Below, in pieces: positions 16,783 to 21,174 of a stretch of DNA of 21,319 bases (the first letter of the stretch is position 1; each line of letters starts with the position of its first letter). The stretch covers positions 1 through 21,319 of IMG/VR virus record IMGVR_UViG_3300036791_000600; one strand, 5' to 3'. The position numbers and the translations under genes were made by a program. The notes below the pieces were generated by a model. That model was not told the origin of the DNA. It did not search any database and saw only the letters and a program-made list of their open reading frames with translations. Source of the stretch: a virus.

Positions 16783-17104
16783 TGTCGGGCTCCGGTTTTG
16801 CCGGAGAGTGCACCGCGACCGCCGTGGGTTCAAGCTGTTGCGGCTTGAGACTGTAGGTATCGCCGTCGCGTTTGGGCCAGCGACCGGACATCAGGCTGGA
16901 CGCGGGGATTGACGATATGGAGCGCTGGGCGTTTTCGATTGCCCTTTGCCGGTCTTCCAGCATTTTGACCTCGGTTTGGGTTGCCGTTCTGATCGCGTCC
17001 AGTTGCTGGCTCACGGCTTGGATCAGGCTTTTTAGCTCGCTGGTGATTTCCGTCAGCCGCTTGTCCACCAGCTGGGCGAGTAGTTCGCTACCGTTGTCGG
17101 GCAT
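16736..17104 (-). CDS. Coiled-coil protein in small-terminase position
   Basis: The 122-residue product has a helical first half likely to form a coiled coil (about residues 8-64, LAQLVDKRLTEITSELKSLI, LDAIRTATQTEVKMLEDRQR) and a Pro/Ser-rich second half. It immediately precedes TerL and overlaps it, the usual position of a small terminase subunit. No helix-turn-helix is clear, so DNA binding is not demonstrated. AAAGGA lies 10 bases before the ATG. The 130-base leader holds a TATAAC-like -10 element at 17126-17131 without a convincing -35. Confidence 0.6.
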   Translation of the reverse strand: MPDNGSELLAQLVDKRLTEITSELKSLIQAVSQQLDAIRTATQTEVKMLEDRQRAIENAQRSISSIPASSLMSGRWPKRDGDTYSLKPQQLEPTAVAVHSPAKPEPDSADSPPGNLRSTNVG

Positions 17105-17191
17105 TGTCGGGGGTTCCTTTCGTGTGTTATATCGCGCTCACTCGGTCTCACACTCTGGGACTTTGGGTATTCGTGGGTACTTCGCGCAACT

Positions 17192-17226
17192 CTGCCGGCC
17201 CTTGGTTGCTCTCCGGGGGCCGGCAG
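17192..17226 (-). repeat. 10-bp hairpin exposing an SD-like loop
   Basis: Perfect inverted repeat CTGCCGGCCC / GGGCCGGCAG with a 15-base loop. On the minus strand the loop contains GGAGAGCAACCA, identical to the ribosome-binding sequence and first start base of the next upstream gene, but the start codon position reads AAG, not ATG. It may be a relic of a duplicated gene start or a structured mRNA element before the late operon. It has no U-run, so it is not a clear terminator. Confidence 0.55.
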
Positions 17227-17234
17227 TTTCCGTT

Positions 17235-17519
17235 TCACGGTTTGTTTTTTAGCACCGCATCCATTCGATCGCGCAACATACAGCAAGCGATCTCAATGCC
17301 TTTTTTGAAATGCTCGTCGCCGCGCCCCGTGCTTATTGCATTTGCGCGGGTCATCGCGACGATGACCGTCGCCATTGCCGGAACCGCACAATGCCCTAAG
17401 TCCCCTTTCCCGGCGAACCAAAGCATTAGCTCGGTTGCCATATCCGCCACCGCGTCGTCATAGCCGCTTCGTGCCACCACGTCGTCATAGTCGCGTGGTT
17501 TAGCTTTGCGCTTCGTCAT
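17235..17519 (-). CDS. Small conserved-type protein with helical core
   Basis: The 94-residue product has a basic N-terminus (MTKRKAKPRDYDDVVARSGY) and a helical core with a hydrophobic, Cys-containing stretch (ELMLWFAGKGDLGHCAVPAM, FKKGIEIACCMLRDRMDAVL). No motif was recognised. GGAGAGC at 17524-17530 is the start signal shared with the early genes, which groups it with that operon, although an HNH-like gene now lies between. It is transcribed toward TerL. Confidence 0.7.
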   Translation of the reverse strand: MTKRKAKPRDYDDVVARSGYDDAVADMATELMLWFAGKGDLGHCAVPAMATVIVAMTRANAISTGRGDEHFKKGIEIACCMLRDRMDAVLKNKP

Positions 17520-17530
17520 GGTTGCTCTCC

Positions 17531-17609
17531 GTTGGTTTTCTATCTTGCCACAATTTGGCCTTAATTTTTTATTTTCCTTTTTTTTAATTTTTAGCGTATT
17601 TTCTTGGTC
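17531..17609. promoter_or_regulatory. AT-rich divergent intergenic island
   Basis: About 80 bases of A/T-rich sequence with T-runs (up to eight T) separate the leftward gene from the plus-strand HNH-like gene. Base composition contrasts sharply with the GC-rich surroundings. On the plus strand TTGCCA and TTTATT stand 17 bases apart and could be a weak promoter for the HNH-like gene. It probably came in with that gene. Confidence 0.4.
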
Positions 17610-17948
17610 ATGTCAGCTTATAGCCCCTCCCGCGATTGGATTGGAACACCCACATACCATTCTTGGGCGCAGATGCTCAGTCGGTGCCGCAGCCCCAAAG
17701 CTACCGCGTTTAAGTATTACGGCGGACGTGGCATTGTCGTTTGTAGTCGTTGGTACTCTTTCGAAAATTTTCTAAAGGACATGGGGCCAAAGCCAGCCGG
17801 TAGATCAATCGATCGAATTAACAACGATGGCAACTATGAGCCGGGCAATTGTCGTTGGGCCACATCTTTGGAGCAGGGCAGAAATAAACGCCAACGGCAA
17901 AAGGGAACACCGTGGCGGAAAAAGCTAAAGCTAACACCGCGAATTTAG
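17610..17948 (+). CDS. HNH-like nuclease of the phage DRIxNDGxYxPxNCRW family
   Basis: The 112-residue protein shows a pattern common in phage and bacterial mobile proteins: TYHSWAQMLSRC, FKYYGGRGIVVCSRWYSFENF, then SIDRINNDGNYEPGNCRWAT and a basic tail. Such proteins are usually annotated as HNH-like or AP2-linked homing endonucleases; the DR-N-N arrangement replaces the classical DH-N-H. ATG at 17610 is used; TTG at 17604 is an alternative. No clear Shine-Dalgarno precedes it. It is the only plus-strand gene among the leftward genes here and has its own AT-rich leader and a strong hairpin after it, all consistent with a mobile insertion. Confidence 0.82.
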   Translation: MSAYSPSRDWIGTPTYHSWAQMLSRCRSPKATAFKYYGGRGIVVCSRWYSFENFLKDMGPKPAGRSIDRINNDGNYEPGNCRWATSLEQGRNKRQRQKGTPWRKKLKLTPRI

Positions 17949-17962
17949 TTGGTGGTGGGGAA

Positions 17963-17995
17963 GGGCCACGGGCTTAAGAGGCCAGCCCGTGGCCC
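17963..17995. terminator. Strong 12-bp hairpin after the HNH-like gene
   Basis: Perfect inverted repeat GGGCCACGGGCT / AGCCCGTGGCCC with a 9-base loop, 14 bases after the plus-strand stop and 22 bases after the next minus-strand stop. It could terminate or attenuate transcription from both sides. U-runs are short (TT on the minus strand), so termination efficiency is uncertain; an mRNA 3-prime protecting element is the alternative. Confidence 0.5.
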
Positions 17996-18017
17996 AAGTT
18001 GCACTTTCGTCAGAACG

Positions 18018-18248
18018 TCAGAACCTGCTGTGTCCTCCTCTACTTGTTGCTAGCTTCCACTTGATCTCGCAACCCTGGCCGCAGTGATTGCAAGCCGTGT
18101 TGCCGTCAAGTAGCTCGGTCAAGCGCCAGTCCTGTAGATGCTCGCTCCAGAGCGCGAACGCCTCCACGCGGATATCGGAGCTTCCGCAATGGCTGCAGTG
18201 CGGGCTTGCTTTCTTTTGCACGTCCCGCGCCGTCACTTGTTCAGGCAT
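18018..18248 (-). CDS. Zinc-ribbon protein
   Basis: The 76-residue protein has two cysteine pairs, C18-x2-C21 (HCSHCG) and C53-x2-C56 (CNHCGQGC), flanking a 31-residue insert with aromatic residues (FALWSEHLQDWRLTELLD). This is a compact zinc ribbon seen in many early phage proteins that bind nucleic acid or host factors. Its start has the common GGAGAGC site at 18256-18262. The stop lies in a short direct repeat (GTTCTGAC twice). Confidence 0.75.
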   Translation of the reverse strand: MPEQVTARDVQKKASPHCSHCGSSDIRVEAFALWSEHLQDWRLTELLDGNTACNHCGQGCEIKWKLATSRGGHSRF

Positions 18249-18427
18249 GGGTTTTGCTCTCCTGTTGCATTGAGGTGCGCGAGCCGATAAACCTTGCGCC
18301 CCGTGGCGACCACCACAAAGCAGGTTACCTTTCGGCTCAGACGCTCGCGCTCGCCTGACTAGGTTGTAAGGTTGATGTGGGCGGAATTGCCCGGTCGACG
18401 GCGCAACGCGCGCCGTCTGCCGTGCAA
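18249..18427 (-). other. Structured 179-base intergenic segment
   Basis: No convincing gene with a start signal fits here. On the minus strand an 8-bp perfect hairpin lies at 18397-18417 (GACGGCGC / GCGCCGTC), and a 7-bp pair (GAGCCGA / TCGGCTC) joins 18332-18338 with 18281-18287 around a loop of about 44 bases. A frame open from 18358 to 18233 would read ERLSRKVTCFVVVATGRKVY-like sequence, but has only GTG/CTG starts and no Shine-Dalgarno. It may be a structured leader, a small RNA or a decayed gene. Confidence 0.4.
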
Positions 18428-18748
18428 CTACTTGCTCCTGCTGTAGTAGTGCGCGAGCGCGTCACAGCAGGATCGCAATCGCGAGCCGCGCCCGTGTTTG
18501 TCCTGATACTCAACATTGAGCAAGCTGCAGATTATTGCTGCCAACTCGCTGGCCTCCAGGCCCATTGCGGACTTGGCACCATTCGCCAGCGTCAAACCTT
18601 TCGGGTCTGTTGGGTTGGCATAGTGTCGACGCGGCGTGATTTTGCCGTCCAGTCCGAATTCTTTGGCAAACTGTTGCACGCCTTCCGCGCCGATGAACGC
18701 ATGATCACACTCGCGTAAATCAGCCACAGCTTTGAGCTTGTCTGTCAT
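18428..18748 (-). CDS. Early protein of unknown function, 106 aa
   Basis: From ATG at 18748 the product begins MTDKLKAVADLRECDHAFIG and continues EGVQQFAKEFGLDGK and a helical, Cys-containing C-terminus (ASELAAIICSLLNVEYQD, LRSCCDALAHYYSRSK). No motif was recognised. The start has GGAGAGT at 18756-18762, the one variant of the shared ribosome-binding site. The open frame extends upstream to 18940 only as shadow of the DUF932 gene. Confidence 0.75.
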   Translation of the reverse strand: MTDKLKAVADLRECDHAFIGAEGVQQFAKEFGLDGKITPRRHYANPTDPKGLTLANGAKSAMGLEASELAAIICSLLNVEYQDKHGRGSRLRSCCDALAHYYSRSK

Positions 18749-18765
18749 GTTGTTTACTCTCCTAT

Positions 18766-18808
18766 CGGCACAAGCGCCGCAAGCTGGCCGGATCGCACCC
18801 GGCCAACT
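18766..18808 (-). repeat. Intergenic hairpin module, type B copy 1
   Basis: A 10-bp stem (18782-18791 with 18799-18808) is followed toward the gene by a small palindrome (18766-18779) and then GATAGGAGAG and the start codon. The same architecture and much of the sequence recur at 20764-20804, with a compensating change in the stem (G-C pair here, A-T there). This supports a conserved RNA structure. Confidence 0.65.
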
Positions 18809-18815
18809 GACTGCG

Positions 18816-19859
18816 CTATGCGGCTTCCAGAACGCGCTTCCATTCCGTTGTGGGCAATTCCAGTAACGCGCCGCCTGCGCTTTCAAACTCAACGGCGCGA
18901 TCATAGGACTTCGCGGTGTGCGCCTGTGCTGTGACGGCATTGAGCATACCCCACGCGCTCAGATCACCACCTTGGATCAGGGCGCGGAGTATCGAGCCCT
19001 TCTCGGTTTCGTTCGCGCCGACCTTCTGCGCCAACACCTCGATTGCTTTCGCCGGATCACCAGTAACCCGCGCGTCCGTCAAGCCGCGCATTTTGTCGAG
19101 ATTGGCGCGGAACTTGGTTTCGTCGACCACGGCGCGAACCATGTCGCGGACCTTCAGCAAGATTGCTTTGTCGTCAGCAATCATCGTGTCTTCGGCCCAT
19201 TCCAACTCGCCCTCGTCGACTTGCCGTCCGACATGGTTGCGGCGAAAGGCGTCCGCCGTTTTCATGCCGTTGAGGCAGATCAAACGCCACACCAGACCAG
19301 AGACGCTGATCGAACCAAGACCAACTTCGCTGTTGCTGATGATGCCGCCCGCCTGCACAACGTCGCCGACTTTCACCTCGCCAATGATGCTTGGCACAGT
19401 GAAGTGGATGTACAAGCGACGGTCAGTCACTTCCGACGACACAACTTGCACGCCCGGCAGATCGTACAGGACCGGCAACGCGGCTTCCGCAATCTGTTCG
19501 TTCTCGACGCGTTGATAGCGATTGCTCAAAAACGCGCGCGTGTTACCGCCGAGTGTGCGGACCATGCGCTTTTCCGGGTTGCGCTTGAACCACGTGTTGA
19601 CGTTGGTCGCGAGCAGCTGCGGCGCGTCCGTGACCATGCGGTCATAGTAAGCGGCTGGAATTTTCGTCCGCGCCCCGATTTGATTATGCGCGTGCGACAT
19701 AATCGGGAACGTGCCGTGTGACGGAATTTCCAGGGCCGGTCGATTGTCGTCCTGGATGACCATCTGCATTGCAGAGGTGTCCGCAACGTAGTCGCGTTTC
19801 AACTCTTTGTTTGCTTCGATCTTGCGCGCGAGATCAGTCAATGAAAGACCGCGTTGCAT
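18816..19859 (-). CDS. DUF932 family protein
   Basis: The 347-residue product matches the phage/plasmid DUF932 family in length and layout: IPAAYYDRMVTDAPQLLATN, NTWFKRNPEKRMVRTLGG, TRAFLSNRYQRVENEQIAEA, then VQAGGIISNSEVGLGSISVS and VWRLICLNGM. The molecular role is unknown; members are common in early regions of large phages and on plasmids, often near DNA-metabolism or anti-restriction genes. GGAGAGC at 19863-19869 precedes the ATG by 3 bases. It is the largest early gene and has ordinary GC-rich codons. Confidence 0.88.
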   Translation of the reverse strand: MQRGLSLTDLARKIEANKELKRDYVADTSAMQMVIQDDNRPALEIPSHGTFPIMSHAHNQIGARTKIPAAYYDRMVTDAPQLLATNVNTWFKRNPEKRMVRTLGGNTRAFLSNRYQRVENEQIAEAALPVLYDLPGVQVVSSEVTDRRLYIHFTVPSIIGEVKVGDVVQAGGIISNSEVGLGSISVSGLVWRLICLNGMKTADAFRRNHVGRQVDEGELEWAEDTMIADDKAILLKVRDMVRAVVDETKFRANLDKMRGLTDARVTGDPAKAIEVLAQKVGANETEKGSILRALIQGGDLSAWGMLNAVTAQAHTAKSYDRAVEFESAGGALLELPTTEWKRVLEAA

Positions 19860-19903
19860 TTTGCTCTCCTATGCGCCGGGCATGGCGCGGTGATACTCGC
19901 CCA

Positions 19904-19948
19904 GCAAACGTCACGGCGCGCGGCCGTGGCGCTTGCGGTGCAAGTCAG
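19904..19948 (-). repeat. Intergenic hairpin module, type A copy 1
   Basis: A 45-base block identical at 43 positions to 20259-20303; the two differences are adjacent bases in the hairpin loop. It contains a 13-bp stem with one mismatch (19904-19936) and, at its upstream end on the coding strand, the TGA stop of the preceding gene. A GGAGAGC start site for DUF932 follows about 35 bases later. Confidence 0.85.
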
Positions 19949-20229
19949 CTTGTCATTCCTGCGGTGGACGCCTTCGAACGCGTCTCACACTCGGCGAGCG
20001 CATCCGAAAAACGCTCATTGGAGTAAACAAGACTTTCGAGCTTGTTGACGATTAGGACGACAGCAGGATCAGAATAGCTTGCAAGTGTGCCGCCCGCGTC
20101 CGTTGCCTCATCGGCCGCGCGGACAAGCTCGCGTGCGATAGCGCGTAGGTTACCGCCGTCTTGTAGGTCTATCGCGTTCTGAAACCGTGTTGAGTGCCGA
20201 TCACGGCAACGGCAATAACGATCACACAT
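19945..20229 (-). CDS. Small early protein, 94 aa
   Basis: From ATG at 20229 the protein begins MCDRYCRCRDRHSTRFQNAI, with Cys2, Cys6 and Cys8 perhaps binding metal, and continues with helices (LRAIARELVRAADEATDAGG, VVLIVNKLESLVYSNERFSD). No family was recognised. GGAGAGC at 20235-20241, then AAACA, gives a clear start; an upstream ATG at 20262 lies inside the hairpin module and is rejected. Its stop lies within the repeated 45-base block. Confidence 0.75.
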   Translation of the reverse strand: MCDRYCRCRDRHSTRFQNAIDLQDGGNLRAIARELVRAADEATDAGGTLASYSDPAVVLIVNKLESLVYSNERFSDALAECETRSKASTAGMTS

Positions 20230-20258
20230 TGTTTGCTCTCCTGTAGGCAACATGCCCG

Positions 20259-20303
20259 GCAAACGTCACGGCGCGTTGCCGTGGCGCTTGCGGTGCAAGT
20301 CAG
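20259..20303 (-). repeat. Intergenic hairpin module, type A copy 2
   Basis: Near-identical partner of 19904-19948. The stem spans 20259-20291 with a 5-base loop. It carries the TGA of the upstream gene, so both copies begin at a stop codon. Downstream, GGGCATGTTGCCTAC and the GGAGAGC site match the next module at 20477-20505. Confidence 0.85.
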
Positions 20304-20476
20304 TAACCACGCGAGCGCATCAGCGCCGCGATGGCCACCTCAAAACCGAGATGCTGGCCAGCCACAGCCTTGTCAGCTGCGGTGGCAGCAACGAACCAAA
20401 AGTCTTTTGTGCCGCCTTTGCTTAGGCGCGCGATCCGCGTCAACGTGACGTTGCGCGGCTTGTGGTGCGGTGTCAT
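20300..20476 (-). CDS. Small basic early protein, 58 aa
   Basis: Begins MTPHHKPRNVTLTRIARLSK and continues GGTKDFWFVAATAADKAV, ending EVAIAALMRSRGY. Basic N-terminus with a short strand-helix body; possibly nucleic-acid binding. The ATG at 20476 follows GGAGAGC at 20483-20489. The open frame upstream (to 20536) crosses the hairpin and is not used. No homology recognised. Confidence 0.7.
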   Translation of the reverse strand: MTPHHKPRNVTLTRIARLSKGGTKDFWFVAATAADKAVAGQHLGFEVAIAALMRSRGY

Positions 20477-20505
20477 GTGTTTGCTCTCCGTAGGCGACAT
20501 GCCCC

Positions 20506-20539
20506 GCAATGGAGCGCGGCGAGCATGCCGCGCCATTGC
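20506..20539 (-). repeat. Intergenic hairpin module, type A-like
   Basis: Stem of 13 bp with a two-base bulge (GCAATGG-CGCGGC paired to GCCGCG-CCATTGC) and a 6-base loop. The flank GGGGCATGTCGCCTAC before the GGAGAGC site differs from that of the 20259 module at only two positions, and a similar short sequence at the upstream gene's stop also recurs, so it is a diverged member of the same family. Confidence 0.7.
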
Positions 20540-20547
20540 AGTGCAGG

Positions 20548-20748
20548 TCAGTCAGGATTAGCGAGCCCGTATTCGTGGCAGTCAAGCAAGTCGCGTTGAC
20601 GTTCGTTCTCGCCGTAGCGCAGACCCTGCTCGCGGTAGCATGGCCAACAAGTCAGGTTCCCGTGGTCTTTCTGCTTGAGGCAAAACGGGCAGACGTGGCC
20701 GCGTCGCGTGTGCGGGTAGTCGTGGCTATCGATTGTGAGCGCGATCAT
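20548..20748 (-). CDS. Small zinc-finger early protein, 66 aa
   Basis: Contains C20-x2-C23 (HVCPFCLKQ) and C34-x2-C37 (LTCWPCYRE), a compact zinc knuckle or HNH-like treble-clef candidate, with an acidic, Tyr-rich tail (LLDCHEYGLANPD). ATG at 20748 follows GGAGAGC at 20754-20760 and AAACA. The nearby ATG at 20769 lies within the hairpin module. A nucleic-acid-binding role is likely but not proven. Confidence 0.75.
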   Translation of the reverse strand: MIALTIDSHDYPHTRRGHVCPFCLKQKDHGNLTCWPCYREQGLRYGENERQRDLLDCHEYGLANPD

Positions 20749-20763
20749 TGTTTGCTCTCCTAT

Positions 20764-20804
20764 CGGCACAAGTGCCGCAAGCTGACCAGCGTCGCCGGTC
20801 AGCT
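20764..20804 (-). repeat. Intergenic hairpin module, type B copy 2
   Basis: Small palindrome 20764-20777 (CGGCAC TT GTGCCG on the minus strand) and 8-bp stem AGCTGACC / GGTCAGCT at 20780-20804, followed by GATAGGAGAGCAAACA and the start codon. It pairs with the copy at 18766-18808; sequence outside the loop is largely the same, with base-pair-preserving changes. Confidence 0.7.
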
Positions 20805-20811
20805 GACTGCA

Positions 20812-21036
20812 CTAGGTCGATTGCTTTTCAAGCTCATGCGTGGCGTAGGTGGTGACAACGATGGGCACACTGTCAGGCGCATCCGTGTAGACCGTCACGG
20901 TAAAGTCGCGATTAGCAGCCTCGCCGGTCAGTTTGATTGAGATGCATTGCCGCGCTGGGTCATGCTCTAATTCAATCTGCTTGATGCCGTGTACGCTCAA
21001 GTTGTAGACGCGCGGGCCGTCGTGAAACTCGCTCAT
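20812..21036 (-). CDS. First early-operon protein, 74 aa
   Basis: From ATG at 21036 the protein begins MSEFHDGPRVYNLSVHGIKQ and is beta-rich (QIELEHDPARQCISIKLTGE, FTVTVYTDAPDSVPIVVTTY). No motif was recognised. GGAGAGC directly abuts the ATG (21037-21043). The open frame extends to an ATG at 21156 but that start lacks a Shine-Dalgarno and its sequence crosses a strong hairpin. It is the first gene after the candidate promoter. Confidence 0.72.
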   Translation of the reverse strand: MSEFHDGPRVYNLSVHGIKQIELEHDPARQCISIKLTGEAANRDFTVTVYTDAPDSVPIVVTTYATHELEKQST

Positions 21037-21055
21037 GCTCTCCTCGCGTGTTAGC

Positions 21056-21078
21056 GAGCGCCGCGCCGTGCGGCACTC
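21056..21078 (-). other. Hairpin in the early-operon leader
   Basis: A 9-bp stem with one G-U pair (GAGTGCCGC / GCGGCGCTC, 5-base loop) in the leader, 20 bases before the first early start codon. It mirrors the hairpin-then-GGAGAGC arrangement before the later genes. Confidence 0.5.
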
Positions 21079-21174
21079 GACACCACGCAAGTAGGTGTAG
21101 GCTACCGAGACGTTCGACCGTCCCTCTCTGTCCCCGCCGCTACCGGGTATTCCCATGTCCGCTCTGATGCCAAC

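Follow-up and report, generated by a model that had tools for sequence, protein, structure and literature searches.

The closest described counterpart of the locus considered here is the system of start-associated and extended start-associated sequences (SAS and ESAS) in Cluster K mycobacteriophages, in which an extended Shine-Dalgarno (SD) repeat precedes a subset of non-structural genes and about half of the copies have an upstream inverted repeat (PMC3203893). According to the sections of that report that deal with these repeats, their consensus differs by subcluster, a role in translation initiation was proposed, and departures from the inverted repeats generally do not support RNA pairing in the authors' view (PMC3203893). 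Here we analyse a comparable repeat, GGAGAGC or GGAGAGT, found just before the early genes of IMG/VR virus record IMGVR_UViG_3300036791_000600, a linear virus fragment of 21,319 bases (the whole of this stretch is hereafter the window), and we consider it somewhat probable that this repeat, which is embedded in stop-hairpin-SD-start cassettes, is the common target of a phage-encoded anti-SD small RNA (sRNA). A sequence-only reading of the window had drawn the comparison with Cluster K, and it is apt: the window and its relatives (the window family) likewise have an extended SD-like repeat at several non-structural starts, in one orientation. The motif differs, however, and both the 13-bp GGGATAGGAGCCC and the mycobacteriophage genes are absent; unlike the Cluster K inverted repeats, the stems of the window family do support RNA pairing, and unlike the Cluster K paper we propose a complementary sRNA locus.

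Several other systems bear on this proposal. In the alphaproteobacterial anti-SD sRNAs ar14/NfeR1 and AbcR, as far as the relevant part of the source describes them, a constant anti-SD loop sits on diverging stems and several mRNAs are silenced at their start regions (PMC10746234). The putative phage sRNA resembles these in having a loop that complements the SDs of its targets on stems that vary; unlike these host-encoded RNAs, it would be encoded by the phage and would act on early genes of that same phage through a seed that is longer than CUCC and specific to each clade. Short phage antisense RNAs that lower phage gene expression include lambda OOP and aQ and P22 sar, each of which, as outlined in one review, acts on a single phage gene (PMC12197685), whereas the putative sRNA would have a common site in many early genes. 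In the T4 RegB regulon, by the account in the portion of the source that treats it, early SDs are marked by GGAG and cut at GG*AGRAYARAA (PMC3014915). Titles and abstracts within a limited literature collection yielded no multi-target anti-SD phage RNA acting on the phage's own early genes.

The window and its relatives

The phage family to which the window belongs is uncultured and comes from soil. Genes in the window lie on the minus strand, in the order eight small early genes, a TerS-like gene (so labelled from its position alone), and genes for the terminase large subunit (TerL), portal and head. Pfam matched one of the early genes, as DUF932, and none of the rest, and a tRNA search of the window returned none. 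No near relative was present among 50,697 phage records, the best terminase match being 36% identical, and the terminase found no relative in the genome collection searched for host assignment. A scan of viral contigs yielded 80 relatives with terminase identities of 71-96%, and we used the 64 in which the terminase start lies far enough inside the contig to show the upstream sequence; relatives are designated by L numbers, and L205 and L206 are genomes fetched later by way of an early protein. Two clades are distinguished below, clade 1, which includes the window, and clade 2, which consists of L018, L022, L025, L029, L033, and L044.

A shared start motif in the early genes

All eight early starts for which GGAGAGC or GGAGAGT had been noted carry it on the minus strand (first G at 21043, 20760, 20489, 20241, 19869, 18762, 18262, and 17530), at a distance of 7-14 nt from the start of the open reading frame (ORF). 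GGAGAG occurs in the window at 14 sites on the minus strand and 4 on the plus strand, and one copy, at 17214, is away from any start; it proved to be the most informative. The sequence-only reading had also held that late genes mostly use varied sites, and the relatives bear this out, as in 16 clade-1 loci GGAGAG stands before 46 of the 108 early ORFs and before 4 of the 138 late ones (simple gene caller; Fisher p 2e-15). Across the 64 loci, GGAGAGCAA occurs in 70 copies upstream of TerL on the gene strand, with no copy on the opposite strand or in 512 kb downstream of the terminase; in 17 clade-1 loci, the early-side copies number 65 at starts, 11 in the TerS-side hairpin loop, and a single one at another place. 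Across 111 sites, A-GGAGAGC-A-(A)-(A) is conserved, whereas the positions before the first A are poorly so. The extended SD of the window's clade is AGGAGAGCAA; clade 2 has AGTGGAGA in place of this motif, and AGTGGAG precedes 14 of 39 early ORFs in that clade vs 0 of 59 late ones. Among viral contigs, 36 stretches contain the 16-mer GGAGAGCAAACAAATG, which is present in multiple copies only within this phage family, and the right arms of complete genomes hold more motif copies before non-structural genes.

Other repeats were seen at or near early starts. We considered whether AGCGAGCC might serve other relatives as their start motif and rejected this, as in L042 it is part of an array with a period of 37 nt. 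This array (L042 3036-4100) has about 27 units of the form AGCGAGCCA-N9-ATCAACATCA-N9, that is, two conserved halves and two variable spacers; AGCGAGCC also occurs in many copies in L020, L040, and L041. The early regions of L022, L023, L029, L043, and L052 have stereotyped SDs of their own, some preceded by a small hairpin with an ATTCC-type loop, and GGCNNGGC-rich repetitive stretches precede some starts in the L025 early region and in L119 near 11019.

A putative antisense small RNA beside TerS

The hairpin that holds the 17214 copy sits between the last early gene and TerS. Read on the opposite strand, the locus has the elements of a small transcription unit:

17104-17236, plus strand: putative sRNA gene including its promoter
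17104-17133, plus strand: putative sRNA promoter, sigma70-like, TTGTCG (17104-17109)-N18-TATATC (17128-17133), opposite the TerS start codon
17140-17236, plus strand: putative antisense small RNA, with its 5' end placed from the promoter
17192-17226, plus strand: predicted sRNA terminator hairpin, whose loop (17202-17216, TTGGTTGCTCTCCGG) contains the complement of the start motif

The loop, TTGCTCTCC/UUGCUCUCC, is complementary to the start motif and constant on differing stems in all 17 of the clade-1 loci examined, and L205, which has the clade-1 motif, carries the unchanged loop on a new stem, GCCGCTGGGG. Clade 2 has TCTCCACT at the sRNA locus, matching its own motif; the complement, UCUCCACU, lies outside the loop in the single-stranded 5' part of the predicted RNA, and L206, which has the clade-2 motif, repeats this arrangement. 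A small hairpin lies ahead of UCUCCACU in L022, L033, and L206 (by eye), so that the distance to the promoter is variable, a pattern that fits an RNA better than a promoter element.

The direction of transcription was assessed on the GC-strongest hairpin 200-600 nt before the terminase, chosen with its flanks ignored to avoid selection. An A-run of at least 4 on the 5' side, equivalent to a U-run for antisense transcription, was present in 27 of 54 genomes and a T-run on the 3' side in 1 of 54, a polarity that led us to reject the hairpin as a sense terminator ending the early operon; late controls gave 3 and 6 of 168. In most relatives, TTGNNN-N16-18-TATANN is present on the opposite strand between the hairpin and the TerS start, and the best promoter score relative to shuffles had a mean z of 1.81 in the antisense direction vs 0.10 in the sense direction (37 genomes). 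The possibility that this promoter serves a plus-strand HNH gene was rejected, as only 2 of 37 loci, one of them the window, have a homologue within the 1.5 kb that precede the hairpin. The HNH endonuclease ORF of the window (17604-17948, plus strand) is antisense to the early operon, and L010 is the only relative with a homologue at the matching place.

Complementarity between the small RNA locus and early starts

We compared the 24 nt upstream of all SD-bearing starts with the TerS-side region and counted matches of at least 7 nt in 15 clade-1 and 5 clade-2 genomes; L017 and L022, in which no hairpin passed the A-run rule, and L007, in which the early part is cut, were left out. Clade-1 regions matched 108 of 175 of their own early starts and 34 of 229 of their own late starts, vs 113 of 875 with the region taken from clade 2. 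The corresponding counts in clade 2 were 29 of 91, 19 of 117, and 276 of 1365 with the other clade's region, and with matches of at least 8 nt the fractions became 0.20, 0.04, and 0.05. When 35 genomes are taken together, matches are present at 159 of 397 early starts and at 83 of 585 late ones. Partial lineage-specific matches were also present, AAAAGGAGAG at 2 of 7 starts in L032 and GGAGAGCGC at 1 of 3 in L026. In the window itself, seven of the eight starts match the loop complement by 8-13 nt and the eighth by 6; one of the seven is the following:

17525-17530, minus strand: GGAGAG of the 17519 start, matching the complement of the sRNA loop over 13 nt

One may postulate that the motif is instead the site of a phage protein, such as an endoribonuclease of the RegB kind, cutting at early SDs, or a binder akin to RegA or CsrA for which GGA in the sense-strand loop is a further site. 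Such a protein would fit the concentration of the motif in early genes and the fact that a sense hairpin would present GGAGAG in its loop, and GGAGAGCAAACA resembles, by inspection, the T4 RegB cut site as given in the part of the source cited above (PMC3014915). A protein site leaves unexplained both the antisense polarity of the terminator and the clade-2 arrangement, in which the motif is outside the loop, while Pfam matched RegB in 0 of 10 records, the positive control likewise being without a match; we regard this explanation as unlikely.

Hairpin cassettes between early genes

The hairpins that the sequence-only reading had reported upstream of at least six starts are present: the folding z-scores of the 75 nt upstream of the eight window sites are -2.2, -4.8, -4.1, -2.4, -2.6, -2.1, -1.2, and -0.8, six of them below -2. 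The two hairpin families it had named are likewise real, with three copies of type A and two of type B in the window, and a third, type C, recurs in relatives. The early starts of the window that concern us here are arranged as follows:

21038-21080, minus strand: hairpin region and GGAGAG of the first early gene (start 21036)
20755-20814, minus strand: type B cassette with stop TAG (20814-20812), long imperfect hairpin, and GGAGAG; the next ATG is from 20748
20484-20550, minus strand: diverged type A cassette with stop TGA, hairpin, and GGAGAG
20236-20302, minus strand: type A cassette with stop TGA, hairpin, and GGAGAG
19864-19947, minus strand: type A cassette with a second small hairpin ahead of GGAGAG; it starts the 347-amino-acid DUF932 gene
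18757-18818, minus strand: type B cassette with stop TAG, hairpin, and GGAGAGT

In 16 clade-1 loci, z fell below -2 upstream of 61 of 110 early motif sites vs 3 of 102 late starts, random early 75-mers serving as a control (19% of 150); the clade-2 counts were 13 of 24 motif sites vs 8 of 72 late starts. Each of types A, B, and C folds as one stem, roughly 18-21 bp long and interrupted by an internal loop or bulge. Among 19 copies of type C, 97% of cells are paired and 25 two-sided changes occur vs 9.5 when shuffled, and a covariance model found 3 further copies; the 12 copies of type A are 86.9% paired, with 6 two-sided changes vs 1.5. Covariation in the 8 copies of type B is weak (3 two-sided changes vs 1.3, with 30 of 500 shuffles as high, on the analyst's structure), and RNAalifold adds an outer stem with one compensatory pair. 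The compensatory changes, many in type C, fewer in type A, and few in type B, show selection on RNA structure in types A and C, as they do in the larger type E element described below, which has many. Loss of the stems in relatives that keep the genes had been named as a check on the earlier reading; once run, it found that stems are kept through compensatory changes, though weakly so for type B.

The stop codon of the preceding gene marks where the hairpins start: TGA is at offset 0 in 17 of 19 copies of type C, TAG is at -1 in 8 of 8 copies of type B, and 11 of 12 copies of type A have a stop at -2 or -3, the three exceptional copies having a stop codon 3, 6, and 11 nt upstream of the hairpin. 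Onset is therefore within 3 nt of the upstream stop codon in 37 of 39 copies, and because of this the cassette can be described as one stop-hairpin-SD-start unit of 64 to 87 nt. Control of SD exposure by a ribosome at the upstream stop codon was considered and rejected, as blocking the first 15 nt in the folding computation moved mean SD openness only from 0.55 to 0.49 (38 modules). Genes of many unrelated families flank the linkers (12 copies of type A and 19 of type C), and the linker after family-1 genes is of type B in L006 and L008 but of type C in L009, L013, and L017. The earlier suggestion of module shuffling is thus supported in part, in that the same linker type separates unrelated gene pairs and one gene family has different linkers by sub-lineage.

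Hairpins between the early genes of T7 are RNase III sites, and T4-type phages carry PeSLs, mobile promoter/stem-loop cassettes that are repeated and intergenic. The window family is like T7 in having hairpins between early genes, known here from sequence alone, and like PeSLs in having repeated intergenic stem-loop cassettes between unrelated genes; unlike PeSLs, its cassettes span the stretch from stop codon to SD, and no promoter was recognised in types A-C by eye. It follows the T7 precedent to suppose that host RNase III cuts the intercistronic hairpins and that the common SD is a stereotyped strong ribosome-binding site travelling with the linkers. Stem length with an internal loop or bulge is compatible with this in all three types, as are the selection of types A and C as RNA and their position between early genes. 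We nonetheless give it a low probability as a full account, since it leaves unexplained the complementary TerS-side loop and its clade-wise change, and right-arm motif copies occur without evident hairpins; RNase III processing of the hairpins is compatible with an anti-SD sRNA, and both may hold. Least likely of all is concerted evolution of mobile linkers that shuffle genes within genomes, the TerS-side copy being a functionless stray piece: the many gene contexts of the type A and C copies and the switch of linker type after family-1 genes fit it, but at every clade-1 locus the TerS-side loop is constant on a changing stem, that copy comes with signals of an antisense terminator and promoter, and the later-fetched L205 shows the same loop on an unrelated stem.

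Proposed mechanism

Under the anti-SD sRNA reading, each hairpin, which begins at the upstream stop codon, leaves the SD and start region relatively open, and the SD would extend beyond the length required for pairing with the ribosome because a single phage small RNA also uses it as a common target. This sRNA would be transcribed toward the early operon from the sigma70-like promoter opposite the TerS start and end at an intrinsic terminator, and its terminator loop in clade 1 (UUGCUCUCC) or its 5' part in clade 2 (UCUCCACU) would pair with the SD of many early genes. Pairing in vivo should block translation of these genes and spare late genes, which lack the motif. The sequences themselves show the motif, the cassettes, the RNA covariation, the antisense terminator and promoter signals, and the clade-matched complementarity; from these we infer that the sRNA is made, pairs, and represses, and we infer the timing as well: the sRNA would rise with genome copy number and so close the early phase. 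That the loop of the putative sRNA is the exact complement of the motif suggests that a single sRNA could shut down all of the early genes together. Among the three functions that had been suggested for the motif and its hairpins, translation control is the best supported, although it would act through an antisense partner that the sequence-only reading had missed.

This interpretation must be made cautiously, however, as a number of observations weigh against it. The window's own terminator has a weak T-run, TTTCCGTTT, and was rejected by the terminator filter, and the TTG of the antisense -35 element may stem from the CAA-ATG context of the start codon. Several related lineages whose early start motif is a different one do not fit: L043 and L052 have stereotyped starts and yet no antisense terminator was found in them; conversely, L023, L024, L040, L042, L045, and L047 have the antisense hairpin with no match to the start motif beyond single starts, and these unmatched lineages indicate that the system may be a two-clade development on an older small RNA. 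Duplex energies computed over the whole region separate the classes modestly in clade 1 (-21.3 for own early, -19.0 for own late, and -17.2 for swapped pairs) and hardly at all in clade 2 (-19.6, -18.6, and -18.9). The two clades were defined by the analyst once the motifs were known, and most right-arm non-structural genes with GGAGAG are without an evident cassette.

Several phage groups have been described as carrying repeated start-associated sequences to which no function is assigned. Should such repeats be read by one small RNA, they would form the targets of a purely RNA-based early-to-late switch, and the lineage-matched pairs of seed and target would amount to natural swaps for the study of anti-SD specificity.

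A possible parallel in Cluster K1

Anaya, Adephagia, Angelica, and CrimD each have one reversed SAS that is not at a gene start (PMC3203893, 2011); the passages of that report on K1 give it simply as a reversed site. In Anaya and CrimD, we find that the reversed SAS is located in a noncoding gap, where it makes up the loop, CCUCCUAUCC, of a long hairpin (Anaya JF704106 about 59850-59905, and other Anayavirus records). The same loop occurs in Stinson, Dole, DrHayes, and LilPharaoh, the last with a changed outer stem, for a total of 6 of 11 phages; it was not seen in the stretches read of Pixie, Bryler, Sunflower1121, Wintermute, and Miryou. The Anaya stretch is present in 127 records in all. 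The K1 anti-SAS hairpin loop is a lead and not proof. As a broader conjecture, which we advance with some doubt, phage anti-SD sRNAs may silence the phage's own early genes jointly by way of a motif present at each early start, with seed and motif changing together from lineage to lineage, and may have evolved independently in Cluster K1, which would explain SAS. The anti-SD idea could be tested at once in cultured Cluster K1 phages.

A leader-like element at one early start

One early start of the window is preceded by a different structure, which we call type E:

18263-18374, minus strand: leader-like RNA with P1, a conserved GUCYGAGCCGAAAG internal loop, P2, and P3, ending at the GGAGAG of the 18248 start

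Type E occurs in a single copy in each of 12 genomes, with two-sided compensatory changes in 15 of 21 pairs; including later matches, there are 53 two-sided cells vs 17 shuffled, on an alignment fitted to the model. Out-of-sample matches were obtained in L018 (E 6e-13) and twice in L205 (E 2e-17 and 5e-12), and L023 and L024 gave marginal ones (E 0.004) in which P1 and P2 are retained by eye. Rfam returned one weak, chance-level match elsewhere in the window and none at gathering score in 7 relatives, and a hammerhead-like core was rejected because the cleavage triplet is not kept (by eye). A TTGAC-like promoter stands directly before type E in L010, L011, L013, L014, L017, L018, and L074 (by eye), and because this promoter adjoins its upstream side, type E looks like a 5' leader. 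In several relatives the promoter ahead of type E has an inverted repeat, CTTGACA-N5-TGTCAAG.

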